This document shows positions 1 through 31,673 of a stretch of 45,192 nucleotides of DNA, in pieces. This DNA is from a virus. Positions within the stretch are counted from its first letter, which is position 1. Each line of letters begins with the position of its first letter. The stretch is from the IMG/VR virus record IMGVR_UViG_3300032820_000020, positions 1 through 45,192 of that record; one strand, written 5' to 3'. The notes beneath the pieces are model-generated. The model was not told the origin of the DNA. It saw nothing but the letters and a program-made list of their open reading frames with translations, and did not search any database. The position numbers and the translations under genes were made by a program.

Positions 1-154
1 CTCTTATAGTTTCGTTACGTTTATCAACTTTTCCCCCAAGAAGTTTAACAATTTTTTCTAATGTAGCTTCAGAGGCGGCATTAGTGACTGTAACCTCTTG
101 TCCAGTCATTCCATCGCCAAATCCATCAGGTAATTTGATTTTTACATCAGCCAT
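1..154 (-). CDS. tail protein N-terminus, possibly tape measure (partial)
   Basis: The first 51 codons are visible, reading leftward from an ATG at 152-154; the rest lies outside the window. The peptide begins MADVKIKLPDGFGDG and contains the segment ASEATLEKIVKLLGG. A short start followed by an EATL..LV/I helix is a pattern I associate with the amino ends of phage tape-measure or long tail proteins, but too little is present for a firm family call. A perfect late-promoter octamer (TATAAATA) sits on the minus strand about 70 bases upstream, so the gene is expected to be expressed late. Its neighbour across the divergent promoter region is the gp26-like chaperone. In many tailed phages the chaperone pair lies beside the tape-measure gene, which fits the tentative call. 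It could equally be another tail or baseplate protein. Confidence 0.4.
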   Translation of the reverse strand, partial: MADVKIKLPDGFGDGMTGQEVTVTNAASEATLEKIVKLLGGKVDKRNETIR

Positions 155-242: not shown

Positions 243-1109
243 ATGCCAAAAAAAATCGAGGAGCAGAAAGATAATCCTTTAAAAAAGTATTTTAGACAAC
301 CTAAAATTTATCTAAAATTACCTAGTGGAGGAGAATTTTATAACTCTAATGAACTAGATATGCCTGAAAACAGTGAAGTTCCTGTATATCCAATGACAGC
401 AAAAGATGAACTTTTGTTTAAAACACCTGATGCATTAATTAATGGCCAGGCTACAGTTGATGTCATTAAAAGTTGCATACCTAATATTAGAAATCCATGG
501 TCAATGCCAAGTATTGATATGGATGCTGTATTAATTGCAATTAGATTAGCAACTTATGGTGAAAAAATGACTATAAGTGTAAAAATTCCTGAAATAGGAG
601 ATGATAAAGATTTTGAAATTGATTTAAGAACTTTATTAGACAGCTTGATTAATGCAAATTACAACAGTACTGTATTTTATAATGATATGGAAATAAAAAT
701 ACGTCCTTTAAACTATGACGAGTTTACTAAAAATGCTATGAGTACGTTTGAAGAACAAAAAATTTATACTCTTGTTAATGATAAAACTATACCAGACGAT
801 AAAAAAATGAAATTGTTCAGTGAAAGTTTTATGAAATTAACAGATTTAACTATTTCAATTGTTTCTCAGAGTATTGTTAGTATTAAAGTAGATGGAAAAA
901 TTGTTTCTGATCAAAAACAGATTAAAGAATTTATGGATAATGTAGATAAACAATTTTATCAAGCTATATTAGATCATATTACAAATCAAAGAGATGCATT
1001 TTCAGTTAAACCTTTCAAAGGAACAACTACAGAAGAAGAACAAAAAAGAGGCGCACCCAAAGAATTTGACGTTCCAATAACATTTGATCAATCAAATTTT
1101 TTCGCATAA
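243..1109 (+). CDS. 26: gp26-like baseplate hub / tail assembly chaperone
   Basis: This 288-residue protein resembles the T4 gp26 baseplate family. The recognisable core is around residues 50-110: PMTAKDELLFKTPDALINGQ, then a VIKSCIPNI segment and a helix with AVLIAIRLATYGE. In T4, gp26 is needed for hub assembly; its position before the next ORF matches T4 genes 26-51. The ATG start has a GGAG ribosome site five bases away and a late promoter upstream. The carboxyl end is lysine/glutamate-rich and stops with FDQSNFFA. The last codons (AAT TTT TTC) form a -1 slippery sequence that leads into the following ORF without a stop, so a minor longer product of about 363 residues is likely (inference). 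This two-product design is typical of tail-chaperone pairs in other tailed phages. Confidence 0.7.
   Translation: MPKKIEEQKDNPLKKYFRQPKIYLKLPSGGEFYNSNELDMPENSEVPVYPMTAKDELLFKTPDALINGQATVDVIKSCIPNIRNPWSMPSIDMDAVLIAIRLATYGEKMTISVKIPEIGDDKDFEIDLRTLLDSLINANYNSTVFYNDMEIKIRPLNYDEFTKNAMSTFEEQKIYTLVNDKTIPDDKKMKLFSESFMKLTDLTISIVSQSIVSIKVDGKIVSDQKQIKEFMDNVDKQFYQAILDHITNQRDAFSVKPFKGTTTEEEQKRGAPKEFDVPITFDQSNFFA
1094..1103 (+). promoter_or_regulatory. candidate -1 ribosomal frameshift site
   Basis: In the gp26 frame the bases read A AAT TTT TTC, giving two overlapping slippery heptamers of the X XXY YYZ type (A-AAT-TTT and T-TTT-TTC). The gp26 stop follows two codons later. The -1 frame is open from 1088 to the stop at 1331-1333. 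I see no convincing stimulatory hairpin or pseudoknot downstream by eye. Confidence 0.6.
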
Positions 1110-1114
1110 GGATA

Positions 1115-1333
1115 TTGACAAAGACTCTCCCCGAAATTCTTAAGGAAGTTGATGTCCTAGATAATGAGAGCAAACAATTTAAAGCGGATCTTCTGAGATT
1201 ATGCTGGTATATGCGTGGAGGTCTTACAATGACTGAAGCATTTGAAACTTGCCAAGAAGATAGGATCCTTATGTCCGCTATAGTTAAAGAAAACCTAGAA
1301 ACAACTAAAAAATCTGGTTTACCATTCTTTTAA
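1115..1333 (+). CDS. gp51-position small tail chaperone, likely read by -1 frameshift
   Basis: The open frame encodes 72 residues if started at the TTG at 1115. It is helical and acidic, with LRLCWYMRGGLTMTEAFETC in the middle. It directly follows the gp26-like gene in the -1 frame, the place where T4 has gene 51, though T4 gp51 is much longer. There is no ATG near its start. The only ribosome-site-like bases (AAGGA at 1108-1112) lie just two bases before the TTG, which is too close for efficient initiation. The frame is open back to 1088, across the slippery sequence at 1094-1103, so the segment is probably translated mainly as the tail of a gp26 fusion, adding about 76 residues. The function is inferred from position only. 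Confidence 0.6.
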   Translation: MTKTLPEILKEVDVLDNESKQFKADLLRLCWYMRGGLTMTEAFETCQEDRILMSAIVKENLETTKKSGLPFF

Positions 1334-13471: not shown

Positions 13472-13576
13472 ATGATTAGCAGTTTTACATATACACAAAA
13501 CAATAGTTACACTATTACAACTGTAACTTTAACAGATGGGTCTACGCAAACAATTGTAAGACCAAAAGGGAAATAA
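13472..13576 (+). CDS. 34-residue small protein coupled to gp6
   Basis: A short frame beginning MISSFTYTQNNSYTITTV and ending IVRPKGK fills the gap between gp25 and gp6. It has a proper ATG, an AGGA ribosome site seven bases upstream and a late promoter just before that. Its stop shares one base with the gp6 start (TAATG), a classical arrangement for coupled translation. The peptide is threonine-rich and looks like two or three beta strands; it has no family I know. It could be a genuine minor virion or wedge-assembly peptide, or a leader ORF that sets gp6 translation. Confidence 0.55.
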   Translation: MISSFTYTQNNSYTITTVTLTDGSTQTIVRPKGK

Positions 13577-16500
13577 TGTCATCTACAGATAGACAAAATA
13601 GATTATTATTAGCAGAAGATTGGAAAAGAATTTATCAGACTTATAAAAATGCTGAATTTAAAAGTTATGATTTTAATACAATTCGAAGAACTTTAATCAC
13701 CTATTTAAGACAAAATTATCCAGAAGATTTTAATGATTATATTGAAAGTAGTGAATATCTAGCATTAATAGATATGATTGCATTTTTAAGTCAAAATATT
13801 GCTTTTAGAATAGATTTAAATGCAAGAGAAAATTATTTAGAATTAGCAGAAAGAAGAGAATCAATTTTAAGATTAGCAAGATTACTCAGTTATAATGCTA
13901 CAAGAAATCAAGCGGCAAATGGAATTCTTAAGATAGATGCAATATCAACTACAGAAGATTTATTAGATAGTAATAATTTAAATTTATCAAATCAATCTGT
14001 ATCATGGAATGATCCTAGTAATGCTAATTGGTACGAACAATTTATAAAAGTTTTAAATGTTGCTTTACCTGTTAATGAAAAATTTGGAAAACCAGTTCGA
14101 AAAACAACAATAGATGGTATACCAACACATCAATATAAATTTACTTCTGTATCAAGTCTTGTACCAGTGTATAGTTTTGCAAAAAATATAGATGGTAAAA
14201 ATACTGATTTTGAAATAGTTTCAACTACAACAGATGAATTAACTATAACAGAAGAAGCTCCATTAGCCGGAAGACAAACATCTTTAGTACATAGAGATGA
14301 TGGTAGAGGTAATGGAAGTAATAATACTGGATTCTTTATGCATTTTAGACAAGGTGTTTTAGATTCAGGAGATTATGCAATTGATAATCCTAGTTCAAAT
14401 CAAGCAGTTGATATAGATTCTACTAATATTAATAATACAGATATTTGGTTGTATTCTGTAAATGAATTTAATATAGAAACTGCACTTTGGGAACAACTTT
14501 CATCAACTGAAGGTAATAATGCAATTTATAATAGTACTGCTAAAAATATTAGAAATATATATTCTGTTATTACTAAAACAGATGATAGAGTAAGATTACA
14601 ATTTTCTGATGGAGTTTTTGGGAATTTACCTCAAGGATCATTTAAAGTTTATTATAGAGTAAGTGATAATAGAAGATTTAAAATAATTCCTGAAGATATG
14701 CAAAATATTCAAATTGATATTCCTTATATTAGTGAAAATAATAAAACAGAAACATTATCATTAACTATGGGATTAAAATATACAGTAGATAATGCAACTA
14801 CTTCTGAAACAAATGCACAAATACGTACAAATGCTCCTTCCACTTATTATACACAAAATAGAATGATTACCGGAGAAGATTATAATATTGTACCATTAAC
14901 AAAAAATCAAGAAATTTTAAAAATTAAAGCTGTCAATAGAACATCAAGTGGTATATCTAGATATTTTGATTTATTAGATGCTACAGGAAAATATAGTAAT
15001 ACTAATTTATATGGTAATGACGGAGTAGTTTATAAAGAAGATGTAGATGATTTAGGTACTTTTACTTTTTCTACACGGACAGACATTGACGGAGTTATTA
15101 TTAATACTATAGAACCTGGATTGGCGACTAAACGAATTTTTAATTTTTATACTGATAAATTTCCAAAAATTTTATTAACTGATCTTCTTCCTACGTGGAC
15201 TCAAGTAACTAAAGATACAAATTTAAGTACAGGTTATTTTCAAGATGCAAATGCAACCAAATATGATGTAGGTTCATATACAGCAAGTCAATTAAAATAC
15301 TTAGAAGCAGGGGCACTTTGTAAATTTGAAGCGCCAGCAGGTTATCATTTTATGTCTGATGGAACATTAATGGCGGGCGATGCCGATCATAGTGGTTCAT
15401 CTACTTATAAATGGACAGGTGTAGTTAGTGTTTTAGGGGATGGTACAACAAACGATACAGATGGATCAGGCGCAATTAAATTTAATGATATTATACCAAG
15501 CAATGCAATATTAACACAGATTCTTCCAAAATTTAACAAATATCTTACTAATGATATAAAAATTCAATTAATTGATCAAATTTATTCATACAAAACTTTT
15601 GCTTTAAGATATGATGTATCATCAAGAAATTGGAAAGTAATTGATGAAAACAATCTTAACATTTATGGTACATTTAGCACAGGAAAAACAGGTGACTCTA
15701 GTAATATGCAATTAGATTCTAGTTGGATACTTTTGTTTACCAATAATGGTGAAACATATACTATGACGTCAAGAGGTATGCGTTATATATTTGAAAGTGA
15801 CAAAGAAATTAGATTCTTTTTTGATAGTGCAGATAGAAATTATGATTATAAAACAGGAAAAACATTACAAGATAAAATTTCTGTATTAAGCATAAACACT
15901 GCTCCTGATGTAATAACGCCAATGACTAATGAAGTCGTATTTAATATTACTAAAGAATATAGAGATGTAAATGGTTATGTAGATAGTAAAAAAATAGAAT
16001 TAACTCATTATGATTCAGATCAGGACGGTATTGTAGATAATCCAACAGCATTTGATGATGTCGTTGCTTCTTCTATCAATCCTCTTACAAAATATATTTT
16101 TCAAAAAAGATATACATTATCAAATGTAGAAGATTGGAGATATGTTGATGCAACAACAGAAAGTATTATTGTGAAACAAAATACAAGTGCCATAGGTGCA
16201 TATAGTACCTATGTTGATGATAGCGTAATTTATCTAGCAGATGAAGATGCATTTAAAATAGTAAACGGTACTTCTAATACACTTACGGATACAACTGATT
16301 ATAAACAACATATAGGTCGAGATAAACTTAAATTTCAATACGTACATACTGTAGATGGTGATACTAGATTAGATCCTAGTTCAACTAATATTATGGATTT
16401 ATATGTAGTAACTAAAACTTATAATACTAATTTTAGACAATGGTTAGATGGTACACTTTCTATAAAACCTTTACCTCCTAGTAGTTCTAGTTTATTCAAT

Positions 16501-17016
16501 AGTTATGGTACAGAACTTGCTTCAGTAAAATCTATTAGTGATGAAATTATATATCATCCTGTAAAATATAAAATTTTATTTGGATCACAAGCAGAAACTA
16601 ATTTTCAGGCTTCATTTAAAGTTGTTAAAAATGTAGGTGAAGTAACTAACGATAGTGATATTAAAAGTAGAATTAAACTTGCTATTGACGAATTTTTTGC
16701 ATTAGATAATTGGGATTTTGGGGAAACATTTTATTTCTCAGAATTGAGTGCTTACGTAATGACTCAATTAGCTCCAGATATTTCAATTTTCATTATTGTA
16801 CCTAATGAAACAACACAAACTTTCGGTAGTCTTTATGAAGTTAAATCTGAAAGTGATGAAATCTTTGTTAGTGGGACAACGTTAGATAATATAGAAATTA
16901 TAGATGCTGTAACGGCGGCTAAAATTAAATCATCTGGCAAAGTTGTATCGTCAACATCCTCGACCAGTACTGGAGTGGTGAGTTCAACAGGAGCCAGTAG
17001 TGGAAGTGGATACTAA
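13576..17016 (+). CDS. 6: gp6 baseplate wedge protein (enlarged)
   Basis: The amino part is clearly gp6-like: FNTIRRTLITYLRQNYPEDF (34-53), SSEYLALIDMIAFLSQNIAF (59-78), then RIDLNARENYLELAERRESI and LRLARLLSYN. gp6 dimers join the wedges into the baseplate ring. The central QFSDGVFGNLPQGSFKVYYR (around 337-356) and TYYTQNRMITGEDYNIVPL (around 425) are the usual baseplate-J-like core. At 1146 residues it is far longer than T4 gp6 (660). The added carboxyl half includes a DSDQDGIVDNP calcium-loop-like motif (about 813) and ends in a serine/threonine-rich tail. The gene starts on the stop of the 34-residue ORF and ends on the start of the giant gene (one shared base). Confidence 0.85.
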   Translation: MSSTDRQNRLLLAEDWKRIYQTYKNAEFKSYDFNTIRRTLITYLRQNYPEDFNDYIESSEYLALIDMIAFLSQNIAFRIDLNARENYLELAERRESILRLARLLSYNATRNQAANGILKIDAISTTEDLLDSNNLNLSNQSVSWNDPSNANWYEQFIKVLNVALPVNEKFGKPVRKTTIDGIPTHQYKFTSVSSLVPVYSFAKNIDGKNTDFEIVSTTTDELTITEEAPLAGRQTSLVHRDDGRGNGSNNTGFFMHFRQGVLDSGDYAIDNPSSNQAVDIDSTNINNTDIWLYSVNEFNIETALWEQLSSTEGNNAIYNSTAKNIRNIYSVITKTDDRVRLQFSDGVFGNLPQGSFKVYYRVSDNRRFKIIPEDMQNIQIDIPYISENNKTETLSLTMGLKYTVDNATTSETNAQIRTNAPSTYYTQNRMITGEDYNIVPLTKNQEILKIKAVNRTSSGISRYFDLLDATGKYSNTNLYGNDGVVYKEDVDDLGTFTFSTRTDIDGVIINTIEPGLATKRIFNFYTDKFPKILLTDLLPTWTQVTKDTNLSTGYFQDANATKYDVGSYTASQLKYLEAGALCKFEAPAGYHFMSDGTLMAGDADHSGSSTYKWTGVVSVLGDGTTNDTDGSGAIKFNDIIPSNAILTQILPKFNKYLTNDIKIQLIDQIYSYKTFALRYDVSSRNWKVIDENNLNIYGTFSTGKTGDSSNMQLDSSWILLFTNNGETYTMTSRGMRYIFESDKEIRFFFDSADRNYDYKTGKTLQDKISVLSINTAPDVITPMTNEVVFNITKEYRDVNGYVDSKKIELTHYDSDQDGIVDNPTAFDDVVASSINPLTKYIFQKRYTLSNVEDWRYVDATTESIIVKQNTSAIGAYSTYVDDSVIYLADEDAFKIVNGTSNTLTDTTDYKQHIGRDKLKFQYVHTVDGDTRLDPSSTNIMDLYVVTKTYNTNFRQWLDGTLSIKPLPPSSSSLFNSYGTELASVKSISDEIIYHPVKYKILFGSQAETNFQASFKVVKNVGEVTNDSDIKSRIKLAIDEFFALDNWDFGETFYFSELSAYVMTQLAPDISIFIIVPNETTQTFGSLYEVKSESDEIFVSGTTLDNIEIIDAVTAAKIKSSGKVVSSTSSTSTGVVSSTGASSGSGY

Positions 17017-20000
17017 TGGCATACGATAAAAATCAAAAAGAATATCCTTTACCTGCAGGATCAGATCCCAAAAAGCGTCAGACAGCGGCATTCTTACCTA
17101 AGTATTTTAGAACACCTGTAAATGAAAAATTTCTTCATAGTACTGTAGATCAATTATTATCACCAGGATCGGTACAAAAATTAAGTGCTTATTATGGTAG
17201 AAAAAGTAGTAAAGCATATACTACTAGTGATGTTTATGTACCTGAAGTATCATCTGATAGAGAAAATTATAAATTAGAATCAGGAACAGTAATCAAAGAT
17301 GATTTAGATAATACGATTTTTTATAAAGATTATATTGATTATATTAATCAAATTAAAGCGTTAGGTGGTAATGTAGATAATCATAGCATTCTTAATAAAC
17401 AAGAATTTTATGCTTGGGCTCCTCATATACATTGGGACAAATTTTATAATTTTAGAGAATATTATTGGATGACATACGGTCCTTTGACTGTAAGTGTTAC
17501 CGGACAACAAGAAAATGTTCAAAGTACCTATACTGTAGAAATTAAAAACAATGTAGATAGTTATGCATATTTGTTTACCCCAGATGGGTTAACTCAAAAT
17601 CCTAGTTTAAAATTATATAGAGGTCAAACTTATAATTTTGATATATCAACACAAGGTTTACCTTTTACAATTAAAACTGTTAGATCTTTAAGTAGTGATT
17701 ATCTTTATAATGACGGAGTTTCTGCACAAAACGTAGAATCAGGAACAGTAACTTTTACAGTACCTATAAACGCACCTGATCTTTTATATTATGGTAGTGC
17801 TAATGATATTAATGTATTTGGTGAATTTAAAATTTATAATATTAGTGAAAACACTTCTATAAATGTAGATGCAGATTTTATAGGTAAAAAAACTTATATT
17901 TTTGAAGATGGTACAAAACTTTCAAATGGAATGAAAGTTAATTTTAGAGGAAATGTAACACCAGACAAATATAAAACAGATGAATGGTATGTTGAAGGTG
18001 TAGGAGAATCTATTAAATTAATTAAAGATAAAGATTTAGAAATTCCTAGTGTATATTCTCAAACTTTTGAAGTTCCTTTTGATTCTCAAAAATTTGATAG
18101 AGTAGGGTTTGGAACAGCAACAACATATGCAGTTGTAAAAGATTATATTGTAATTAATAAGTCTTCACCAGATAAAAACCCTTGGTCACGTTATAATAGA
18201 TGGACACATAAATCAGTTATAGAAACAAGTGCAATAATTAATAAAGAAATTCCTACATTTGATGAAACATTAAGAGCACAACGTCCTATTATAGAATTTG
18301 AGGCAGGATTAAAATTACATCAATTTGGTACTGGTGCTAAAGACAATGTTACTTTAATAGATACAAAAACAACTGATGTAATGTCTGATATAGAAGGGTC
18401 AACAGGATATTATGTAGATGGTACATTATTGGCACATGGTACGAGGTTATTAGTTACTGCTGATACTGACTCAACTGTTAATAATAAAATTTATGATGTA
18501 AACATTATAGATTTTACTGTAGATGGTGTAGTTACAAAACAAATTGCTCTTAAAGAAGCTACGGACACTACTCCAACTACTAATGATGTTGTGTTAATTA
18601 AAAATGGAACTGTTAATAGTGGAAAAATGTATTATTATACAGGTTCTAAATGGAAAGTAACTCAAGCTAAAACTAAAGTTAATGAGTCTCCTAAATTTGA
18701 TTTATTTGATGATAGTGGTATTAGTTTTTCAGATTCATCTACATATACAAGTACTAATTTTTTCGGAAATAAAATTTTTAGTTATAAAGAAGGCACAGGA
18801 AGTAATGATACAGAATTAGGATTTCCTTTAACATATCAAAATGTTTCTAATATAGGAGATATTGTTTTTGATTTTAATTTAATTAATGAGACATTTTCTT
18901 ATCAATCTGGGGATACTGTATTAACAACAAATACTAATTCAGGATTATTAAGAAAATATTCAGATTTAACTACTTTTAAAGTTGTGTCTGGCTGGGAAAC
19001 TGCTGATGTTAAAAGTTATCAAAGAGTTATTAGACAATATGATGTATCTACTCTAGTTAATGATTTTGCAGTAGATGTATATGATAAAAGTGGTGATATA
19101 AATGACCTAGATGTTACAGTTTTTGTTAATCATAAAATTAAAAAATTAACAACTGATTATGCTATTAATAGAATTAATAGTATAGCATATATAAGATTTA
19201 CAAAAGATTTAACTGCTGGAGACATAGTTCATTTAAAAACAAAAAGTGCCACAATAAAAAATAAAAATGGATATTACGAATTTCCTAAAAATCTTGAGTC
19301 TAATCCTTTAAATGATAAATTGTCTACATTTACTTTAGGCCAAGTAGGAGATCACGTAAATTCAATAGTAGATGAAGTTCCAGGATTTGAAGGATCGTTT
19401 CCAGGTAGCAATAATTTAAGAGATTTAGGTAATGTATCTAAATATGGAAGAAAATTTCTACAACATTCTGGATTAATAAATCTTGCTTTATATCATCTTT
19501 GTAATAAAGAAGCCAATATTGTTAAAGCAATAAGACATTCTCAACATGAATACACAAAATTTAAAAGGTTATTTGTTGAACAAGCAAAAAATTTAGGATT
19601 TGACGGCACACCAGCTCAAATGGTCGATGAAGTAATTAAAAGACTGAATAAAAATAAAAGAAAAATTACATATCCTTTTTATTTTACAGATATGATAGGA
19701 TATGGTGGAGCAAAGAAAACAACATTTACAATTACAGATCCAGGTAATCCATATTATCAATTAACAAATGTATTTTCATTAGATGAATTAAGTTCAAAAT
19801 CTATATTAATTTATAAAAATGATGCACAATTATTGCATGATACAGATTACACATTTACAACAGAAGGATTTATAAAAATTAAATCTACTTTAATATTAAA
19901 TGATATTCTTACTATTGTTGAATATGAATCAACAAATGGTTGCTTTATTCCTGCAACACCAACAAAATTAGGTTTATATCCTAAATTTATACCATCAAAA

Positions 20001-23000
20001 TATAGTGACACTACAGCAATAACTCCAGTCAATGTGATTCAAGGTCATGATGGAAATATTAGTGTTGCATATGATGATTATAGAGATGATTTATTATTAG
20101 AATTAGAAAAAAGAATTTACAATAATATTAAAGTAAAATATGATACAGAAATATTTAATTTAACTGATTTTGTTCCAGGAGAATACAGAAAAACAGATTA
20201 TTCTTTAAGTGCTATCAATAAAAGTTTATTAATAGATTTTACTAATTGGTTATCATATGTAGATAATGTCGATTATACGACAAATTCATATCATAGTGGA
20301 ACTGATTCGTTTACTTACAATTATGGATATATGTCTAGTCTAGATGGAAATCCTTTGTTAGGACACTGGAGAGGTGTTTATAAACACGCTTATGATACAG
20401 ATAGACCACATACACATCCTTGGGAGATGTTAGGTTTTGTGGAAAAACCAACTTGGTGGGACACTACATATGGGTCAGCTCCTTATACTAGTGATAATTT
20501 AATTTTATGGCAAGATTTACAAGACGGTGTAATTAGAGAACCTGATAAAAATGTTGTAATAAAAGATGAATATAAAAGACCAGATTTATTAAAACATATT
20601 CCTGTTAATTCTTCAGGAGAAGTTATAAGTCCTCTTGATAGTAATTTTGCTCAGGAGTATGTTCAAGAATATACTCGAAATCCTTTCAAATTTGGTGATC
20701 ATTCTCCAGTGGAAAATGCTTGGAGAAGAAGTTCGGATTACCCTTTTGCAATTATAACAGCATGGTTAGTAAATCAACCAAGTCATGTTATGTCTTTAGG
20801 ATTTGATAGATCAAGAGTAATTAGAAATAGTGCAAAACAAATTGTATATAAAGATACAAGTTCTAGATTTAAATTAGCTAATTTAAAATTTCCAAATTCA
20901 GTTAATGATAAAACAGTAGTGCATACATCAGGTTTAATAAATTATATTTTTGAATACATTGAAACTGACGTATTAACAAATTATACTGATTACAGAAATA
21001 ATGTTAAAAAAATTACTAATCAATTAGGATTTAAAATTCGTGGTTATACTAAAAAAGACAAATTTAAATTATTATTAGATAGTAAATCTCCTACAAATAC
21101 AGGTAGCGTATTTGTACCAGATGAAAATTATCAAATCATTTATAATACAAGTTCTCCTATAGATATATTAACTTACAGTGGATTGATTATAGAAAAATTA
21201 ACATCTGGATTTACAATTAAAGGTTATGATAAAAATGATCCAACTCTTAAATATTTTGCACCTATAACAAAATCAATGGATCCAGAATTTACAATAGGAG
21301 GTATAAGTGCTTCTTATGTTAATTGGGCAGAAAATAAAAGATATGATGTAGGAATGATTGCAAAATTTAGTAATGATTTTTATTCTACAAAAGAACAACA
21401 TATGTCGGGTACAACATTTGATGATACAAAATTTATTTTATTAAAAGAGTTACCTGTTGAAGGAGGATCTTCAGCAAGATTTTCTCAAAATTTCGAAACT
21501 ACTACATCTGAAATTGCATATGGTACTTTGTTTAGAAAAATTCAAGATGTTGTTGATTTTATTTTAGGTTATGGAAAATATCTTGAATCTAAAGGTTTTC
21601 AATTTAATGAATTTAATCGTGATATAGGTTCTGTTGCTAATTGGCAATTGAGTGCTAAAGAATTTTTATTCTGGACTACGCAGAATTGGGGAGAAGGAGC
21701 AGTTATATCTTTAAGTCCATTAGCTAATAAATTAACGTTAAAAACAGAATATAGTGTAGGAGATAATGTATTTGATAATTTTTATGACTATACATTATTT
21801 AAAGAAGATGGAACTAAATTTGATAAAGAATTTATAAGAGTAGTAAAAAAATATAATGACTATGAATTGTTAACTAAAAATACTATTAATGGAATTTATT
21901 ATGCTAAGATTCCTTTAGTTCAAAAAGAACACGTTGCATTAATTGATAATACAACTGTATTCAATGATACAATATATAATCCAGAGACAGGTTATAGACA
22001 AGATAGAATAAAAATTCTTGGTTATATTACAGAAGACTGGACAGGTGGATTAAACATTCCAGGATTTATTTACGACCACGCTCTAGTTGTTGATTGGGTA
22101 CCTTATACTGATTATGCAATGAGTGATTTAGTTAAACATAAAGAATATTATTATACTGCTAGAAATAAAATAAAAGGATCAGCTACTTTTGATGATGAGG
22201 AATGGAGCAAATTAGAAGGTAGACCTAAAGCAGATTTATTACCTAATTTTGAATACAAAACTAATCAATTTGCAGATTTTTATGATTTGGATACAGATAA
22301 TTTTGATTCAAGTCAACAAAGAATGGCACAACATTTAATAGGATATCAAAAAAGACAATACTTACAAAATATAATTAATGATGATGTATCTCAATATAAA
22401 TTTTATCAAGGATTCATTCAAGACAAAGGAACTAAAAATTCATTAACTAAATTATTTGATGCATTAAGTAGTGCAGATAAAGATAGCGTAGAATTTTATG
22501 AAGAATGGGCTATAAGAAAAGGGCATTATGGTGTAACTCAAGGATTTGAAGAAGTAGAATATATTTTAGATGAAAGTAAATTTAGACTTAATCCACAACC
22601 TATTGAATTAACTAACACCATAGATTCAACAACTACAGATCTTGTTATAAGACAAAAAGATAATGAAACATATCTTAAACCTGAAGGTTATGCACATACG
22701 CCTTTCCCGACCAAATATATTAAAGATACATATTTGCGTACTGCAGGTCCAGTAGATCCTAGTGATATAGATTTTACTATAGCAAATTATGATGATATTT
22801 TAACTATGGATACTTCTGTATTAAAAGAAGGAAACTATATATGGATAGGTGATCATAATAATACTTGGAATGTTGTTAAGTTTTCTAACTCTAAACAAAA
22901 AATAACTTTAATTACTTTAGATAGTAACAAGTTAGTTAAAGTTACCACACAAAATAATGCAGAAATAACTGTTGGTGAAATTTTTACTATTAGAGTAGGT

Positions 23001-26000
23001 GACTCTACATATACTTTAAAAGCAAACAAAGTAGAATTAAATGTAATAACTTGTGATGAGAACGAATCAGTTGTAGCTGTAGATCCTGCAGTAGGATATA
23101 TAAGTCGATTTGTATCATCAAGAATTGCAACTATTAGTGATATAAATTCAAAAATTAATGACAGTGGTTTACAAAGTGATGAGAAATTTTGGGTAGATCA
23201 AAATGACAATGAAAAATGGGCTGTATTAAATAATAAATTTGTATATAAAACACACCAAGAAATATCTAATCCTAATGTAACAGTAAACACTTTGTTTGGC
23301 CAAGTATTGTCAGCTAATGATTCAAATACTATTTTAGTAGTAGGTGCTCCAAATGAATCTGATGGAAAAGTTTATATTTTTAAAAGACCAAGTGATGCCA
23401 CAACAGCAACTTTAGTTCAAGCAATTGATTGTCCAACACAAGATTCTATATTGAATAGTTTAGAAGTATTCGATGCTGGTAGCAAATACGGATCTAGCGT
23501 AGCAATAAGTTCTGATGGAAAATATCTTATGGTCGGTGCCCCAGAGGCAAGTAATGTTAAAACTTATTACAAAGGAGATTATGATGTAGCAAATACATAT
23601 GTCATAGGAGACATAGTAAAATATAAACAACAATTATGGAGAGTTGTAAATCCGATATTAGCTGAAGATCCTTCAGTAGACTTTACAACGTTTGACAGTC
23701 ATGCTCATGCAAAAGAATCAACGTATGATTCAAATACAGGAAATTATGACCCAATATCTAGTATCATTGTAGGAAATTATATTTTTCCAAATACTACTAC
23801 AGATCACTTATTAATTAGAGCATCATTAGATCAATATCAAGGTACAGCAGTAGGAGATAAGTTACAATTAAAATGGAATGGATTTAATACTTTTGTACCA
23901 CCAAGTGGTTCTGCGTATGAACCATTTAATGGCGTAGATGCAAACGTAACAGCAGTACTTACTGGGTCACAAGTAATTCAAGAAAAAATAGATGATATTT
24001 TAAATGTACCAGATACTTTAAACAGCCTTTATGGTGGCGAGACTGTTAGTACAGATACAGCAGATGGTACAGTAGCATATGTGCATCAAGAAGGTACACA
24101 ATCTATAATTTACTTAAAAAATGTTAAAGGTAATTTTTCAACTACAGACAGTCTTAAAGCAGGATCTATAAATGTAGGAACTTATATACGAGCATTCACA
24201 GAAGATTATGCTTACGTAGGTGGCTGGTGGAAAATAGATGTTGGGGCAACTATTAATACTAGTTTAGGTGCTGAAACAAACCCGTATCTTGTAGTACAAG
24301 ATATTATTAGACAAGGAATTACTAGAACACTAAATGAATACTTTAATGTTTTAGGAATATCTCAAAATACTCCTTCACCAGGTGTTGTAAGAACATCAGA
24401 AATAGGAATTTTATCTTATGAAAAAACTTATAGTATTCAAGGTCAGCCTGTTGTTACAGGTTTAATTACCGATTCAAGATTCTTTTTAAGAGTAGGCCCA
24501 GGAGTTATGACTGGCAAAGTTGCTGGAAATACTGTTAATGCTTGGTTAAACACTTTAAGAGATAATCAAAATAGTGTTTTTTCTCCAAGTATAATGGGAT
24601 TAGATTTTGCTGACATTAATAAAGAGCTTACAATAAATGACGTATGGAATGGTTGGATAACTGTAGATGCTCAAGCAGATAATTTAGGTAATTTTTATGT
24701 ACCAATAGTTGGCGATAATATAAAAGATGATACATCAGGATCTACAGCAGAAGTCACTTATGTTAAAACAATTGAATTTAATAGATTACAATTATTTCTT
24801 AAAAATGCTTCAGGCATTTTCTTTCAAGGAAGTGATGCAGGTGCTCCAACTGATATAATTTTATTAGGAACACCAAATAGAAAAGTAGGAGTTCTTAAAG
24901 AAGCTCAAATAGATACATTAGGTCAAGGAGGACCATACTTTGTATTTGATTCTGGAAAAACATTAAAATCAACAACTTTAGCAGATATAGAAGTAAGACA
25001 TTTTGATTTAGAATATTGGTTCTGGGATGAATCTACATTAGATGGTGTGGCAAGAACTGCTGAAATACCTGGAAATACTAATAAAAATTATCTTCAAGTA
25101 TACAACATTATTGCAGGAGACGGATATAAAAGTGCTAAAAGTAATCAAGGAGCATATGTAATTTATGAACTTGGTACAAGTGGAGACTTTGAATACAATG
25201 GTACTTACATAGTACCTGATACTAAAGATAATTTAGGATTAGGTAGTAAAATAGAAATAAGAAAAGTAGGTGATGAAACTGTTGCTTATGTAGGAGCTAA
25301 AGGTAATTTAATATCTAATAATGCTGGAAAAATTTATTTTATTAAAAAAAGTAATACTAAAAATTGGTGGTTAGGAACAAATGAATTATATATGGGTGTG
25401 TTCGATCCAACCCTTACATATGCTGAAGGAGATTTAGTAATTTATAATTTAGAATTATACAAAGCAAAAACTAATCTTTCACCAAATGCTTGGGACGAAA
25501 GTTTTTGGACTCTACAAAGTACTGGTACAGATTATCTTGGTTATGTTCCTAATGATACAGGATTAACATTAGAAGGCGATTCAACTCTAAATCAAAGTAA
25601 TTTAGTAATGTTTGGAGAACAATTCGATATAAATTCAACAGGAACAGTTATTGTATCTAATTTATTATACGGTAATGATGCACAAAAAGTTGCTGTATAT
25701 AGATTACAAAATGGTTATTATACATATTCTCAAACTATTACTACTCCAGAAGATTCTTCACCTAATATTAATTTTGCTAATAGTGTAAGCATATCTAAGG
25801 ATGGTACAATAATAGCTATAGGTAGTCCGAAAAAAGATTTTGTTAATTCTGTAGATGCAGGAATAGTTTATACATATCTTCAACAAGACGGTGTATTTGT
25901 ATTAAATCAAAGTTTAGTAAGTCCTGATAGTGAAAATTCAGAAAACTTTGGTCATCAGTTAGGATTTGATGGCACTACTTTAGCAGTTACAAGTCTAAAA

Positions 26001-29000
26001 GGAGATATGCAAGTTAATACAGCATTTGATTCTACAACTACAGTTTTTGATACAGGAGCAACAACATTTTACAAAATAATGTCTGATAGTGGCGTAGTTC
26101 ATTTATTTGAAATATCAGGAAATTCTTTATTATACGCTGAAAAATTTGCATATGCTAATGATGGTATTGTAGAATTTGGAAATAATTTGTTGGTTAAAGA
26201 TAATCACATTTATGTTGGATTGCCTTCACTTACGTTACCTGATAAGAATGCAGGAACAATAGTAGATTTTAGAAAAACTAAAGGAGCTTCAAGTTGGACA
26301 CAAACAGCCGAAGGTGTAGATCAAGTAGATGTTGATAAAATTAAAAGTGTGTTCATTTATAATAAAAGAACAAATGTTGTTACTACTAATTTAGATTATA
26401 TTGATCCTGTGTTAGGTAAAATACCAGGTGTTGCTGAAGAAGAATTATATTATAAAACTTATTATGATCCAGCAGTTTATAATACTGCGACTGCAAGTGT
26501 TGTAATAGATGAAAATAATTATTGGGCGTCAGAACAAGTAGGAAGACTTTGGTGGGATTTAAGTACTGCAAAATATTATTATCCTTATCAAAGTAATATT
26601 ATATTCAACAATAATTATTGGAATAAACAATTTGTAGGATCATCTATTGATGTATATGAGTGGGTAGAATCAGATTACAAACCTAGTGAATGGGATCAAT
26701 ATAAAGATACTTCTGAAGGTGTAGCTTTAGGTGTAACTGGAACAACAAAATATGTAGATAATGCATATGTAACTAGAAATGTTTACGATAAAATAGCTCA
26801 AATAACTACACCTAAATATTATTATTGGGTAAAAAATAAACAATCAGTACCAGAACTTGAATATAGAAATCTTAGTGCAGAATCTATTGCTAAACTTATA
26901 GATAATCCTAAAGGTCAAGGTTACAAATATGTTACATTTTTTAGTAATAATAAATTTGCACTAGTTAATTGTGATTCACAATTGGATGGTTTAGATACTG
27001 TTCTTAATGTTCGTTATTGGACAATAGCTAATCAAGAACTTAATATTCATAATGAATATCAAATTATGGCAGAAGGATTAGAAACTAGTATGCCTTCTAA
27101 AGAAATAGAAAAAGTTTGGTTTAATAGTTTAATTGGATATGATGAAAACTTTAATAGTGTACCTGATAAAGGTTTAAGTCCTAAACTTAGATATGGAACT
27201 TTACACAAACCTAGACAAGGATGGTTTATTAATCATCAAGAAGCATTTAAACAAGTAATAGAAAAAATTAATTCTGTATTATTAACTCATTTAATTGTAG
27301 ATGAATTAGATTTATCTCCTTTAACAAAATCTGATCCTTTACCTTCAACATATACTAGACTTTATGATAAAACAGTAGATGTAGTAGGAGATTTAGACTT
27401 TGTAGGAGTTAGCCAAGTTAAACAGGCATCTTTAATGCCAATTATTAAAAATGGAAAAGTTACTTCTGTATCTATTCTTGATCCAGGTAAAGCATATAAA
27501 ACTATTCCTACGTATGAAATTATAGGTGATAATGGAAAAGGTGCAGTAATAGAATTAGCAATTGATGGTGATGGAAAAATTACTAGTGCAATTGTGAAAG
27601 CTTCTGGAGAAAATTATACTGCGGCGGCAAAAATTGTTGTTAGAAAATTTAGTGTACTTGTAAGCAGTGATATTGGAATTGCTGGTAAGTGGGCAATACA
27701 TTCATATGACACAGATTTAAGTAGTTGGAATAGAACATCATCACAAAAATATAATGTTGATCTTTATTGGAAATATGTTGATTGGTATGATGTAGGATAC
27801 AGCCAATTTACAGTAATAGATTATGCTATTAGTCAATCATATTTGTTAGATTCTTTATCTGATGAAGTAGGAGATATAGTAAAAATTGAAAATATAGGAT
27901 CTGGTGGATGGTTAATATTAGAAAAAATAGATGATCAACCTAATGTAGATTATACTGTAAATTATAAAACTGTTGGAAGACAAAATGGTACAATTGCATT
28001 TGAAGATTCTTTATATAATTTTACTTCAAGCACTGTAGGATATGAATCAACTAGTTATGATACTGTATTGTATGATCGACAACCAGTAATAGAAGCAAGA
28101 ACAATTTTAGAAACTTTACGAGATAAAATATTTGTTGATGATTTAAAAGTAGAATATAACAAACTTTTCTTTTCTAGTTTAAGATATGCATTTAGCGAAA
28201 ATAAATTAATAGATTTTGCATTTAAAACAAGTTTTGTAAAGGCAAAACACAATGTAGGTGACCTTAAACAAAAAGTTACTTACCAAAATGATAATCTTTC
28301 TAGTTTTGAAGATTATATTAAAGAAGCTAAACCTTATAAAACTAACGTTAGAGAATATGTAAGTTCTTATGAAGAAATGCAACCATCTAGTTCAGTTGTT
28401 ACTGACTTTGATTTAGCACCTGCTTATAATGATCTTAAACAAATAGAACCTAATACTGCAAAAGTTATAGATAGTGCTTTAGTAGGTACTCAAAAAATTA
28501 TAAGTTATCCTGCTAAACATTGGTTAAACAATGTTGGATTTAAAATTACATCAATTAATGTAGGAAGTGCAGGTGACGGTTATACTAATGCACCGGTAGT
28601 TAATATAACAGGAGGTGGTGGATCAGGTGCTACTGCTGTATCATATATTAATAATGGAAAAGTTACTTCTATAGAAATTACTAAAGAAGGTGAAGGATAT
28701 CTTTCAGCTCCTACAGTTACTTTACAAGGAGGAACTCTTGGAACAACAGCTAGAGCAAGTGCTGTATTAGGAAGTTCATTAGTTAAATCTACTCATCTTA
28801 CTGTTAAGTTCGATAGAACTACAGGAACATTTTTAATAACTTCATTAGCAAGAACAGAAACATTTACAGGAAATAATTCTAAACTGGATTATTATTTAAA
28901 ATGGCCAATGGATTTAAAATCTAATACAATTAAAGTAACTGTCAATAATGTAGAAAGTTTAACAAGTGAATATACTTTTACTAATATATTAGATAAAACT

Positions 29001-31673
29001 AAAGAATACAATAGATACATAGGACATATTCAATTTACTTTGCCTCCTGCTAATCTTCATGCTATTAAAGTAGAATATACAATAGATGCATTTGTGTTAC
29101 AAGCTCAAGACAGAATTACTCTTTTCTATAAACCAACTGAAGGAATGCCTGGTAATCAATTAGCACAAATTTTAGATGGAATAGATTATGGAGGTGTGGA
29201 AGTTAGAGCTTTAGGATTTGACACTTCTACAGGTTGGGATAGTGATCCTTATATGAGCGGATCATGGGATACTTATGATACAGCTTATGAAGATGAAGTT
29301 TTAAGAATGGATGGTAGTACTAATGTTATTACGTTAAGCAAACCTTTAGAATCAGGAGTAGTTTATAATGTTTATAAAAATGGAATTAGAATAGATGATC
29401 CTAATTATGGAACATCAACTCCAGTGACTAATACAAATGCAATGATTCAAAGTATTACAGGAGATGATTCTACTCAAAGTATTGCTTTTGATACTGTACC
29501 TACAGTTGATGGTGATATAATTGTAGTAAGAAAATCTACTAGTGATGGTAGTTTCTTACCAGATCCAGGTGACTATGATACTTTATTAGAAGGAGGAGAT
29601 TTAGCATATTCAACTGCAACAGGATTAAAAGCAGAAGACATTATAGTAGAAGGTGATGATTTTGTATCACCTACTACATCTAAAGGTCCAGAAGAATTTA
29701 TACCAGGACAAGTTCTTGATACTGTAGATATTCAAGTTTATGATAAAGGAGGAGAAACTGGAAGTAAAATTAATAGTTACAATTACATAGGTGATGGAGT
29801 AAATGAAGCATTTTTCTTTGATGAATATCCTCAAAGTGCTAATGCTATATTTGTTACAGTAGATAATATTTTGCAAGAATCTAATTTATATACTGTAAAT
29901 TATCAAAATAAAAAAATAGACTTTGTAACCGCGCCAGGATTAAATTCTAAAGTTAATTTTATTACAATGAGTAATAATGGAGAAAAAATACTTGACTTTG
30001 ATACATTTACCGCAGATGGTAGTACTACAGATTTTGTAACAAGAGCAGTATGGATTCCTAATAGTATTAATACGTTTGTTAGAGTGAATGGTCAAGTTGT
30101 TTCATATACAATTTTCGAATCAGATAGTTCTTATGCACTTCAAAACAGAGTAGTTGTAAGATTTGCAACTGCTCCAGTACAAAATGATGTTGTTAGTATA
30201 GTTGTATATGCAAGTACTAGTCAAACTTTTAGTGAAGTTACTCAAGATAATTTTGTTGGAGATGGTAGTACTAATACATTCCAATTAAGTCAAACACCTT
30301 TTAATAAAAAACCTTTATCATATAATGTTGTTGTTAAAGTAGGAGATAAAATTCTTAATGCAGGATTTAATAAAGTATTCACAATAGATAATAATAGAGA
30401 ATATGAATTTGAAACTTGGCAACAATTACCTGGTACAATACTTCCTGCAGATGTAAGAGCATTTCTTAATGGTGTAGAAATATCTCAAGGATCTCAATAT
30501 ATATGGAATGCTGGAACTTCTAGTATAACACTTATTACAGGAGTAGGAGAAATAGGTGATACACTTAAAGTTTTTGGAATGTCAAATGGTGATTATACTT
30601 TAAATGAAACTACAGGTGTAATTACTATTAATAATGCTCCTGCTCAAAGTGAAACTATTACAGTATATCAATTTAGTAATCATGATATAGCTAAAATAGA
30701 AAGAATTAATTATGACGTAGTTGCAAGATTATCTATTACTGTAGGTACAGATGATTATTATCTATATCAACAATTAACAAATGGACTTATAAAATTAAGA
30801 CAATTGGCTGAAGATGCTCAATATGTTTGGGTTTCAGTTAATGGAGATATGTTAGCACCTAGTGTAGATTATAAAGTAACTAATGATCAAATGTATCTAA
30901 AAATAAACAGACGATTAGCTAAAGATGATGTTATAGATATTGTACACTTTACAGCACCAAGATTTATAGGTAAATTTGGTTATAGACAATTTAAAGATAT
31001 GATGAATAAAACTCATTATAAACGTTTAGGAAATAATAACAAATTTTTCTTAGCATCTAATCTTTTATGGTCAGATCAGTCAATAGAATTTATAGATGCA
31101 ACAGAATTAACACAACCTAGTATAGGAAGTAGAAATCCTGGAGTATTGTTTATTGATGGTGAAAGAATAGAATATTATATGAAATCAGGAAATACAGTTT
31201 CTCAACTTAGACGAGGAACATTTGGAACAGGAGTACCTAATACACATATTATAGGTACTGAAGTGTTTGATCAAGGACAATTTCAAACTGTGCCTTATAA
31301 AGATGAGTTTTTAACAGAAGTTTATACAGCAGATGGTAGTACTAATATAATTACTATTGGTTTTACACCAAATAATGTTAATGAATTTGAATTATTTGTG
31401 GGTGGTAAAAGGATGAAAAAAACTCCTATTTCTGCATATGACCCAGCTAATGGTCAAGATAGTCCAGAAGCTGATACAATAATACCTGCAGAATTTAGTG
31501 TAGATGGAACAAGTGCTAGAATAACACTTACACAAACCCCTGTAGTAGATACAAAAATCCTAATTGTTAGGAAAATAGGTAAAAAATGGCAAACTGGCAC
31601 AGATCCATTAAGTCAAACGAAAAATGATATTGCTAGATTCTTGCGACAAAAAGAAGTGGCATTGCCGCAATAA
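17016..31673 (+). CDS. giant 4885-residue baseplate/fibre protein (gp7 region)
   Basis: One unbroken frame of 14.7 kb, about a third of the window. It follows gp6 as gp7 does in T4, so a wedge role for the amino end (1-160, with LPKYFRTPVNEKFLHSTVDQ) is reasonable. T4 gp7 has only 1032 residues. Parts seen in order: a cupredoxin/YHYH-like sandwich (about 186-277); four carbohydrate-binding-like modules of the CBM5/12 type (about 1437-1478, 1695-1738, 2189-2214, 2794-2835); FG-GAP beta-propeller blades (2095-2186 and 2866-3087) split by some 650 residues; two glycine-rich 'GYT..P.V' sandwiches (about 3488-3542, 3848-3915); and from about 3947 several 'GDGSTN.F' tail-strand repeats. The ending DIARFLRQKEVALPQ looks like a conserved terminus. 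It may form much of the baseplate rim and contact host polysaccharide. No enzyme motif was recognised. Confidence 0.7.
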   Translation: MAYDKNQKEYPLPAGSDPKKRQTAAFLPKYFRTPVNEKFLHSTVDQLLSPGSVQKLSAYYGRKSSKAYTTSDVYVPEVSSDRENYKLESGTVIKDDLDNTIFYKDYIDYINQIKALGGNVDNHSILNKQEFYAWAPHIHWDKFYNFREYYWMTYGPLTVSVTGQQENVQSTYTVEIKNNVDSYAYLFTPDGLTQNPSLKLYRGQTYNFDISTQGLPFTIKTVRSLSSDYLYNDGVSAQNVESGTVTFTVPINAPDLLYYGSANDINVFGEFKIYNISENTSINVDADFIGKKTYIFEDGTKLSNGMKVNFRGNVTPDKYKTDEWYVEGVGESIKLIKDKDLEIPSVYSQTFEVPFDSQKFDRVGFGTATTYAVVKDYIVINKSSPDKNPWSRYNRWTHKSVIETSAIINKEIPTFDETLRAQRPIIEFEAGLKLHQFGTGAKDNVTLIDTKTTDVMSDIEGSTGYYVDGTLLAHGTRLLVTADTDSTVNNKIYDVNIIDFTVDGVVTKQIALKEATDTTPTTNDVVLIKNGTVNSGKMYYYTGSKWKVTQAKTKVNESPKFDLFDDSGISFSDSSTYTSTNFFGNKIFSYKEGTGSNDTELGFPLTYQNVSNIGDIVFDFNLINETFSYQSGDTVLTTNTNSGLLRKYSDLTTFKVVSGWETADVKSYQRVIRQYDVSTLVNDFAVDVYDKSGDINDLDVTVFVNHKIKKLTTDYAINRINSIAYIRFTKDLTAGDIVHLKTKSATIKNKNGYYEFPKNLESNPLNDKLSTFTLGQVGDHVNSIVDEVPGFEGSFPGSNNLRDLGNVSKYGRKFLQHSGLINLALYHLCNKEANIVKAIRHSQHEYTKFKRLFVEQAKNLGFDGTPAQMVDEVIKRLNKNKRKITYPFYFTDMIGYGGAKKTTFTITDPGNPYYQLTNVFSLDELSSKSILIYKNDAQLLHDTDYTFTTEGFIKIKSTLILNDILTIVEYESTNGCFIPATPTKLGLYPKFIPSKYSDTTAITPVNVIQGHDGNISVAYDDYRDDLLLELEKRIYNNIKVKYDTEIFNLTDFVPGEYRKTDYSLSAINKSLLIDFTNWLSYVDNVDYTTNSYHSGTDSFTYNYGYMSSLDGNPLLGHWRGVYKHAYDTDRPHTHPWEMLGFVEKPTWWDTTYGSAPYTSDNLILWQDLQDGVIREPDKNVVIKDEYKRPDLLKHIPVNSSGEVISPLDSNFAQEYVQEYTRNPFKFGDHSPVENAWRRSSDYPFAIITAWLVNQPSHVMSLGFDRSRVIRNSAKQIVYKDTSSRFKLANLKFPNSVNDKTVVHTSGLINYIFEYIETDVLTNYTDYRNNVKKITNQLGFKIRGYTKKDKFKLLLDSKSPTNTGSVFVPDENYQIIYNTSSPIDILTYSGLIIEKLTSGFTIKGYDKNDPTLKYFAPITKSMDPEFTIGGISASYVNWAENKRYDVGMIAKFSNDFYSTKEQHMSGTTFDDTKFILLKELPVEGGSSARFSQNFETTTSEIAYGTLFRKIQDVVDFILGYGKYLESKGFQFNEFNRDIGSVANWQLSAKEFLFWTTQNWGEGAVISLSPLANKLTLKTEYSVGDNVFDNFYDYTLFKEDGTKFDKEFIRVVKKYNDYELLTKNTINGIYYAKIPLVQKEHVALIDNTTVFNDTIYNPETGYRQDRIKILGYITEDWTGGLNIPGFIYDHALVVDWVPYTDYAMSDLVKHKEYYYTARNKIKGSATFDDEEWSKLEGRPKADLLPNFEYKTNQFADFYDLDTDNFDSSQQRMAQHLIGYQKRQYLQNIINDDVSQYKFYQGFIQDKGTKNSLTKLFDALSSADKDSVEFYEEWAIRKGHYGVTQGFEEVEYILDESKFRLNPQPIELTNTIDSTTTDLVIRQKDNETYLKPEGYAHTPFPTKYIKDTYLRTAGPVDPSDIDFTIANYDDILTMDTSVLKEGNYIWIGDHNNTWNVVKFSNSKQKITLITLDSNKLVKVTTQNNAEITVGEIFTIRVGDSTYTLKANKVELNVITCDENESVVAVDPAVGYISRFVSSRIATISDINSKINDSGLQSDEKFWVDQNDNEKWAVLNNKFVYKTHQEISNPNVTVNTLFGQVLSANDSNTILVVGAPNESDGKVYIFKRPSDATTATLVQAIDCPTQDSILNSLEVFDAGSKYGSSVAISSDGKYLMVGAPEASNVKTYYKGDYDVANTYVIGDIVKYKQQLWRVVNPILAEDPSVDFTTFDSHAHAKESTYDSNTGNYDPISSIIVGNYIFPNTTTDHLLIRASLDQYQGTAVGDKLQLKWNGFNTFVPPSGSAYEPFNGVDANVTAVLTGSQVIQEKIDDILNVPDTLNSLYGGETVSTDTADGTVAYVHQEGTQSIIYLKNVKGNFSTTDSLKAGSINVGTYIRAFTEDYAYVGGWWKIDVGATINTSLGAETNPYLVVQDIIRQGITRTLNEYFNVLGISQNTPSPGVVRTSEIGILSYEKTYSIQGQPVVTGLITDSRFFLRVGPGVMTGKVAGNTVNAWLNTLRDNQNSVFSPSIMGLDFADINKELTINDVWNGWITVDAQADNLGNFYVPIVGDNIKDDTSGSTAEVTYVKTIEFNRLQLFLKNASGIFFQGSDAGAPTDIILLGTPNRKVGVLKEAQIDTLGQGGPYFVFDSGKTLKSTTLADIEVRHFDLEYWFWDESTLDGVARTAEIPGNTNKNYLQVYNIIAGDGYKSAKSNQGAYVIYELGTSGDFEYNGTYIVPDTKDNLGLGSKIEIRKVGDETVAYVGAKGNLISNNAGKIYFIKKSNTKNWWLGTNELYMGVFDPTLTYAEGDLVIYNLELYKAKTNLSPNAWDESFWTLQSTGTDYLGYVPNDTGLTLEGDSTLNQSNLVMFGEQFDINSTGTVIVSNLLYGNDAQKVAVYRLQNGYYTYSQTITTPEDSSPNINFANSVSISKDGTIIAIGSPKKDFVNSVDAGIVYTYLQQDGVFVLNQSLVSPDSENSENFGHQLGFDGTTLAVTSLKGDMQVNTAFDSTTTVFDTGATTFYKIMSDSGVVHLFEISGNSLLYAEKFAYANDGIVEFGNNLLVKDNHIYVGLPSLTLPDKNAGTIVDFRKTKGASSWTQTAEGVDQVDVDKIKSVFIYNKRTNVVTTNLDYIDPVLGKIPGVAEEELYYKTYYDPAVYNTATASVVIDENNYWASEQVGRLWWDLSTAKYYYPYQSNIIFNNNYWNKQFVGSSIDVYEWVESDYKPSEWDQYKDTSEGVALGVTGTTKYVDNAYVTRNVYDKIAQITTPKYYYWVKNKQSVPELEYRNLSAESIAKLIDNPKGQGYKYVTFFSNNKFALVNCDSQLDGLDTVLNVRYWTIANQELNIHNEYQIMAEGLETSMPSKEIEKVWFNSLIGYDENFNSVPDKGLSPKLRYGTLHKPRQGWFINHQEAFKQVIEKINSVLLTHLIVDELDLSPLTKSDPLPSTYTRLYDKTVDVVGDLDFVGVSQVKQASLMPIIKNGKVTSVSILDPGKAYKTIPTYEIIGDNGKGAVIELAIDGDGKITSAIVKASGENYTAAAKIVVRKFSVLVSSDIGIAGKWAIHSYDTDLSSWNRTSSQKYNVDLYWKYVDWYDVGYSQFTVIDYAISQSYLLDSLSDEVGDIVKIENIGSGGWLILEKIDDQPNVDYTVNYKTVGRQNGTIAFEDSLYNFTSSTVGYESTSYDTVLYDRQPVIEARTILETLRDKIFVDDLKVEYNKLFFSSLRYAFSENKLIDFAFKTSFVKAKHNVGDLKQKVTYQNDNLSSFEDYIKEAKPYKTNVREYVSSYEEMQPSSSVVTDFDLAPAYNDLKQIEPNTAKVIDSALVGTQKIISYPAKHWLNNVGFKITSINVGSAGDGYTNAPVVNITGGGGSGATAVSYINNGKVTSIEITKEGEGYLSAPTVTLQGGTLGTTARASAVLGSSLVKSTHLTVKFDRTTGTFLITSLARTETFTGNNSKLDYYLKWPMDLKSNTIKVTVNNVESLTSEYTFTNILDKTKEYNRYIGHIQFTLPPANLHAIKVEYTIDAFVLQAQDRITLFYKPTEGMPGNQLAQILDGIDYGGVEVRALGFDTSTGWDSDPYMSGSWDTYDTAYEDEVLRMDGSTNVITLSKPLESGVVYNVYKNGIRIDDPNYGTSTPVTNTNAMIQSITGDDSTQSIAFDTVPTVDGDIIVVRKSTSDGSFLPDPGDYDTLLEGGDLAYSTATGLKAEDIIVEGDDFVSPTTSKGPEEFIPGQVLDTVDIQVYDKGGETGSKINSYNYIGDGVNEAFFFDEYPQSANAIFVTVDNILQESNLYTVNYQNKKIDFVTAPGLNSKVNFITMSNNGEKILDFDTFTADGSTTDFVTRAVWIPNSINTFVRVNGQVVSYTIFESDSSYALQNRVVVRFATAPVQNDVVSIVVYASTSQTFSEVTQDNFVGDGSTNTFQLSQTPFNKKPLSYNVVVKVGDKILNAGFNKVFTIDNNREYEFETWQQLPGTILPADVRAFLNGVEISQGSQYIWNAGTSSITLITGVGEIGDTLKVFGMSNGDYTLNETTGVITINNAPAQSETITVYQFSNHDIAKIERINYDVVARLSITVGTDDYYLYQQLTNGLIKLRQLAEDAQYVWVSVNGDMLAPSVDYKVTNDQMYLKINRRLAKDDVIDIVHFTAPRFIGKFGYRQFKDMMNKTHYKRLGNNNKFFLASNLLWSDQSIEFIDATELTQPSIGSRNPGVLFIDGERIEYYMKSGNTVSQLRRGTFGTGVPNTHIIGTEVFDQGQFQTVPYKDEFLTEVYTADGSTNIITIGFTPNNVNEFELFVGGKRMKKTPISAYDPANGQDSPEADTIIPAEFSVDGTSARITLTQTPVVDTKILIVRKIGKKWQTGTDPLSQTKNDIARFLRQKEVALPQ
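29310..31345 (+). repeat. dispersed intragenic repeats in giant gene
   Basis: The string GATGGTAGTACTA occurs at 29310, 30015, 30261 and 31332, each encoding DGSTN or DGSTT at the start of a repeated strand module. The copies are spaced irregularly (705, 246 and 1071 bases), so they mark homologous protein modules rather than a simple tandem repeat, but identical codons are kept. Confidence 0.6.

Follow-up and report, generated by a model that had tools for sequence, protein, structure and literature searches.

A probable programmed −1 frameshift site in a T4 gp26-family gene, a putative tail assembly chaperone, is conserved across several phage lineages

Introduction

The tail assembly chaperones of T4-like phages were reportedly identified by Vladimirov, Gautam and Davidson in 2022 (PMID 34826709), in a paper whose abstract is said to name genes 26 and 51. 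According to two papers citing that work, poly-T slippery sequences are known in the TAC-N genes of T4-like phages (PMC12846349), and in some of these phages frameshifting is replaced by a short and a long gene (PMC10885494). Since the T4-like chaperones were, according to these citing papers, described in 2022, the idea of a frameshifted chaperone in this group has to be regarded as already published. A review of recoding from 2016 had described the tail frameshift as widely conserved among long-tailed phages “except T4” (PMC5009743).

The locus considered here lies at the beginning of a window of 45,192 nucleotides (the whole stretch of DNA that was analysed; IMG/VR virus record IMGVR_UViG_3300032820_000020). 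In its predicted products it resembles the lambda gpG/gpGT pair, which likewise consists of a short form and a minor −1 long form with the shift near the end of the first ORF, but the slippery sequence differs. The locus of the Vandenendeviridae phage Adele (PMC12846349) is similar in that TAC-N ends with a conserved poly-T −1 shift and its extension carries a gene annotation of its own, but it belongs to another phage family and its motif is given as GTTTTT. With the T4-like chaperones of 2022, as the citing papers present them, the window gene shares the gp26/gp51 family and a poly-T slippery sequence; set beside them, the window lineage shows a stem-loop downstream of the heptamer and a neighbouring gene that is divergent and tape-measure-like. 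These two features, together with the jumbo lineages, are the modest additions that the present case makes to the known T4-like chaperones.

Results and Discussion

The probable slip site in the window

The coordinates of the locus are collected in Table 1. The zero-frame ORF ends with TCA (1092–1094) AAT (1095–1097) TTT (1098–1100) TTC (1101–1103) GCA TAA (1107–1109). The first-pass annotation of this DNA had claimed two overlapping slippery heptamers with a stop shortly after them, and a −1 frame open from 1088 to 1333 that would give a product of about 363 residues. Both claims are confirmed: A AAT TTT and T TTT TTC are present, the −1 frame is uninterrupted over these positions, and the predicted long product has 287 + 76 = 363 residues. 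Past the slip the −1 frame reads CGC ATA AGG ATA TTG, and the junction would be ...NFF-RIRIL... The window ORFs of at least 100 aa contain 38 in-frame heptamers of ten common slippery types; a long −1 frame (76–77 codons) follows this overlapping pair only, and all others are followed by 25 codons at most.

Table 1. Features of the locus, in window coordinates
Feature	Coordinates	Strand	Remarks
Start of divergent gene, cut by window edge	1..153	−	tape-measure-like, as judged from relatives
Short form, T4 gp26-family protein, 288 aa	243..1109	+	PF12322, phrog_150
Overlapping heptamer A AAT TTT	1094..1100	+	same protein if the slip occurs here; varies among relatives
Slippery heptamer T TTT TTC	1097..1103	+	likely −1 frameshift site, from its invariance among relatives
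C-terminal extension in −1 frame	1103..1333	+	76 codons plus stop; long form 363 aa
Stem-loop, arms 1109–1120 and 1129–1140	1109..1140	+	5 nt past heptamer; probable stimulator in the lineage

The second ORF was also said to have no ATG and a poorly spaced ribosome site. The latter part stands, as the nearest start-type codon in the −1 frame is TTG 1115 with AAGGA only ~2 nt upstream; the former does not, as ATGs occur at 1211, 1229 and 1271, all at least 108 nt past the slip.

In profile searches the short form scores 49.1 bits against PF12322 (curated cut-off 24.5) and matches phrog_150, “baseplate hub”, with an E-value of 5.9e-16. Its AlphaFold2 model has a pLDDT of 85 and a pTM of 0.77, and its top hit in a comparison with predicted structures of viral proteins is named “Baseplate hub assembly protein, bacteriophage T4-like”, with an E-value of 1e-21. 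A fold search of the PDB with the predicted structures of the short form and of T4-type gp51 matched no solved structure, chaperones included. The closest named phages by short-form identity are jumbo phages, namely Sinorhizobium phage Phosso (35.5%) and Agrobacterium phage Atu_ph07 (32.4%), and more distant relatives are found in RaK2, PBECO4, CBB, PA5oct and other jumbo phages.

Conservation of the probable slip site

All 81 related loci taken from IMG/VR and GTDB have the heptamer T TTT TTC, invariant and in register; in them the zero-frame stop lies 6 nt after it and the −1 product has 78 residues from the slip. Some relatives carry C AAT TTT or G AAT TTT in place of the overlapping heptamer, and of the two sites proposed earlier only the second is invariant. 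T TTT TTC and the 6-nt stop distance are also kept in all cyanophage loci (80/80). All 13 named jumbo phages have T TTT TTY near the zero-frame end, with TTC in every one except RAS14 (T TTT TTT); their zero-frame stop is found from 6 nt to tens of nucleotides past the slip, and because this distance varies it is the slip that is kept and not the stop. The same heptamer arrangement occurs in XacN1, S-RIM12, Melnitz-1, phiN3, S-PM2, P-SSM2, YB07 and VS1.

Altogether the arrangement is conserved in more than 170 loci, a count of related sequences and not of independent events, which by eye represent about a dozen separate lineages. Taken with the lone long −1 frame in the window scan, this conservation means that the arrangement, as judged from the sequences, is beyond chance. 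Both the slippery heptamer and the frame relation, which the first-pass annotation had suggested comparing among homologues, are conserved. The slip site is thus retained across jumbo phages, cyanophages, rhizobial phages and a part of Straboviridae, while Tevenvirinae use two genes. Vibrio phage VS1 (L105), labelled as a member of Straboviridae, T4's own family, keeps the frameshift arrangement, whereas T4 has two separate genes.

The conserved frame relation also disposes of the proposal that one long gene only looks broken through a mistake in sequencing or assembly: homopolymer runs are error-prone, but the same relation is seen in more than 170 contigs and complete isolate genomes, by which such an error is refuted.

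The −1 extension and its probable translation

The −1 frame codes for a conserved extension of 56–80 residues whose conservation starts at the slip and, in many members, precedes the first start codon. Many relatives have 54–108 nt past the slip without a start codon, yet this stretch is conserved as protein; in the cyanophages the first start-type −1 codon mostly lies 54–99 nt in (80 loci), and the −1 ORF of PA5oct has no ATG, GTG or TTG anywhere. Phosso, Atu_ph07 and PBECO4 have an ATG overlapping the zero-frame stop. The expectation that the extension would prove to have no proper start of its own is borne out in many relatives, the few stop-overlapping ATGs notwithstanding.

Codon usage was analysed after dereplication at 80% identity, in a set of 32 sequences. 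All of them write the zero-frame Phe-Phe as TTT TTC, though TTC makes up only 0.22 of the Phe codons there and most other conserved codons vary. This fixation has to be read with the reservation that the final C of TTC doubles as the first base of a conserved −1 Arg codon; that double role, in turn, is itself a sign of −1 translation from the slip on. In the same set, variability within the −1 codons is highest at the third position, starting at the slip.

These data bear on an alternative in which ribosomes begin the second ORF anew, through reinitiation or coupling at TTG 1115 or at a non-standard start, and make a stand-alone protein of 72 aa. TTG 1115 is close behind the stop and has AAGGA upstream, and the stop-overlapping ATGs of the three phages named above would suit such translation. 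Vibrio phage D493 (L106:3055-3255) is alike in this respect: it lacks the heptamer, reads CTT TTC AAG TAATGG with an ATG overlapping the stop, and may express its second ORF by another route. However, AAGGA is too close to TTG in the window, the start-free stretch past the slip is conserved as protein in many relatives (with PA5oct lacking any start), and the invariance of T TTT TTC is left unexplained. Separate translation is consequently improbable.

The downstream stem-loop

In the marine lineage of the window, 5 nt separate the heptamer from a covarying stem that reaches 12 bp at most. Pairing is found in 71.8% of cells compared with at most 48.4% when one arm is slid, a level reached by 0 of 500 shuffles; 2 of 500 shuffles attain the covariation score, and the lineage mean MFE is −9.37 versus −7.11 with synonymous codons dealt among the sequences (0/150), all these statistics being inflated by the relatedness of the sequences. 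In the lineage, bases on the loop side of the stem, in that half of it, often stay unpaired, and the window's own stem forms 8 of the 12 pairs in a weak fold of −2.5 kcal/mol. The stem-loop likely stimulates frameshifting in the lineage, and for the window phage itself it is a candidate stimulator.

Another conceivable source of the fused product is transcriptional slippage, in which a U is gained or lost as RNA polymerase copies the run of six T and frame-fusing mRNAs arise. Bacteria are known to show slippage at runs, and the site is indeed a run of T. Efficient transcriptional slippage usually requires longer runs. Moreover, the fixed T TTT TTY register, the codon constraint and the covarying stem-loop 5 nt downstream suit ribosomal slippage better, and we regard the transcriptional route as even less probable than separate translation.

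Proposed mechanism

Programmed −1 ribosomal frameshifting, giving a 288-aa short form and a 363-aa long form of a T4-gp26-family tail assembly chaperone, is with high probability the correct reading of this locus. Most ribosomes would terminate at TAA 1107–1109 and release the short form. A minority would slip back by one base at T TTT TTC (1097–1103), bypass the TAA and produce the long form, in which a C-terminal domain of 76 aa follows the short-form body. If the lambda gpG/gpGT pair (function in PMC5009743) is taken as the model, coating of the tape measure protein may fall to the short form and recruitment of tail tube subunits to the long form, and both would be absent from virions. In T4 and other Tevenvirinae the same outcome would be reached with two genes, 26 (short) and 51 (long).

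This reading is favoured by the invariance of T TTT TTC, by a −1 peptide whose conservation sets in at the slip and by the fixation of TTC, though rare; the covarying stem-loop in the lineage and the membership of gp26 and gp51 in one family favour it further. It is also favoured by the neighbour, in relatives a long virion protein that is annotated as tape-measure-like in RaK2, and by the listing of T4 gp26 and gp51 as hub assembly chaperones in PMC3004832. Counted against the frameshifted chaperone are the weak stem-loop of the window, the divergent neighbour with its tape-measure identity unsupported in PHROGs and Pfam, the fold search that matched no solved chaperone structure, the lack of detectable homology between the jumbo extension and the gp51 C-terminus, and D493 without the heptamer. 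On balance, the earlier proposal of a −1 frameshifted chaperone pair is strongly supported by the comparison of slip site, frame and starts. The conserved frameshift arrangement spans several giant-phage lineages, and their annotations miss it.

Comparison with T4 gp26 and gp51

T4 gene 26 precedes gene 25 on the minus strand; gene 51 lies on the plus strand and has its own start. PF12322 is matched by both gp26 (E 8.8e-64) and gp51 (E 3.9e-52), as is phrog_150; in the alignment to the latter, gp26 stops at profile position 235 and gp51 runs to 280 of 282. T4 gp51 thus aligns as a gp26-like protein with ~45 additional C-terminal residues. By these alignments gp26 and gp51 are full-length paralogues encoded on opposite strands, and gp51 is a naturally fused long form. 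Annotated as “baseplate hub assembly catalyst”, gp51 resembles the long form described here in having a gp26-like domain and a C-terminal extension, but unlike it is the product of an independently started gene, which lies on the strand opposite to gene 26 and has no frameshift.

The first-pass annotation had placed the second ORF at the gp51 position. The second ORF alone does not correspond to gene 51, whose product is a full-length gp26 paralogue. Because T4 gp51 is the long form, the name “gp51” for the second ORF fits only the truncated cyanophage “gp51” annotations. The cyanophage genes of that name (L099, L100, L103, L107) are annotated from an internal −1 ATG, and the N-terminal part is missing from the annotation.

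The −1 extensions of cyanophages, phiN3 and VS1 match phrog_634, which is also matched by the C-terminus of gp51 (hhalign 92%). The jumbo extensions match each other (marine lineage versus RaK2 type, hhalign 94.7%, E 6e-8), and between the extension of the jumbo and window lineages and the C-terminus of T4 or cyanophage gp51 no homology was found by HMM or hhalign (0.2–0.3%). The window-lineage extension occupies the same position as the C-terminal domain of gp51, and the two resemble each other in helix pattern and in the motif MP..(D/E)R. These resemblances, seen by eye only, hint at distant homology; a by-eye alignment of the jumbo extension with the gp51 C-terminus is not supported by the profile comparisons.

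The neighbouring gene

The adjoining gene is divergent in the window lineage as well as in most jumbo relatives. In the relatives it encodes an Ala/Gly-rich virion protein of 700–970 aa, which in RaK2 is annotated as similar to tape measure protein. PHROGs describes the family only as “virion structural protein”, and neither PHROGs nor Pfam supports a tape-measure identity, which is therefore putative. One sub-threshold Pfam match of the neighbour to a toxin-domain model was judged to be due to chance. In the cyanophages a large gene lies directly downstream of the pair.

In lambda the tape measure gene follows the G/GT pair in the same orientation. This layout, with the pair directly upstream of a co-directional tape measure gene, is not encountered in the window lineage or in most jumbo relatives, where the neighbour is divergent. 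The divergence lowers the claim of a lambda-type layout and not that of function, because T4-like chaperones are already known to vary in layout. It is conceivable, and here our confidence falls somewhat short of even, that in jumbo lineages the chaperone gene is divergent from its own tape measure gene and that in the marine lineage the covarying 3' stem-loop aids the slip. If so, the chaperone dose and the ratio of short to long form would be set independently of the tape measure, unlike in co-directional lambda.

Other features of the window

The ORF at 1398–1970 encodes a protein of 190 aa, whose match to uroporphyrinogen-III synthase (PF02602, E 0.0026) is weak and stays below the threshold. 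Just past it, at 1973–2015, there are two back-to-back perfect hairpins, GAATGAAC-TTAC-GTTCATTC and ATGTTTGGC-TAGTC-GCCAAACAT. A GC-rich stretch with short inverted repeats (~2730–2810) is situated inside the otherwise AT-rich ORF 2369–2917 on the minus strand. Downstream of a baseplate wedge gene (13576–17016), a single ORF of 4885 aa occupies positions 17016–31673 and probably encodes a giant baseplate or fibre protein.
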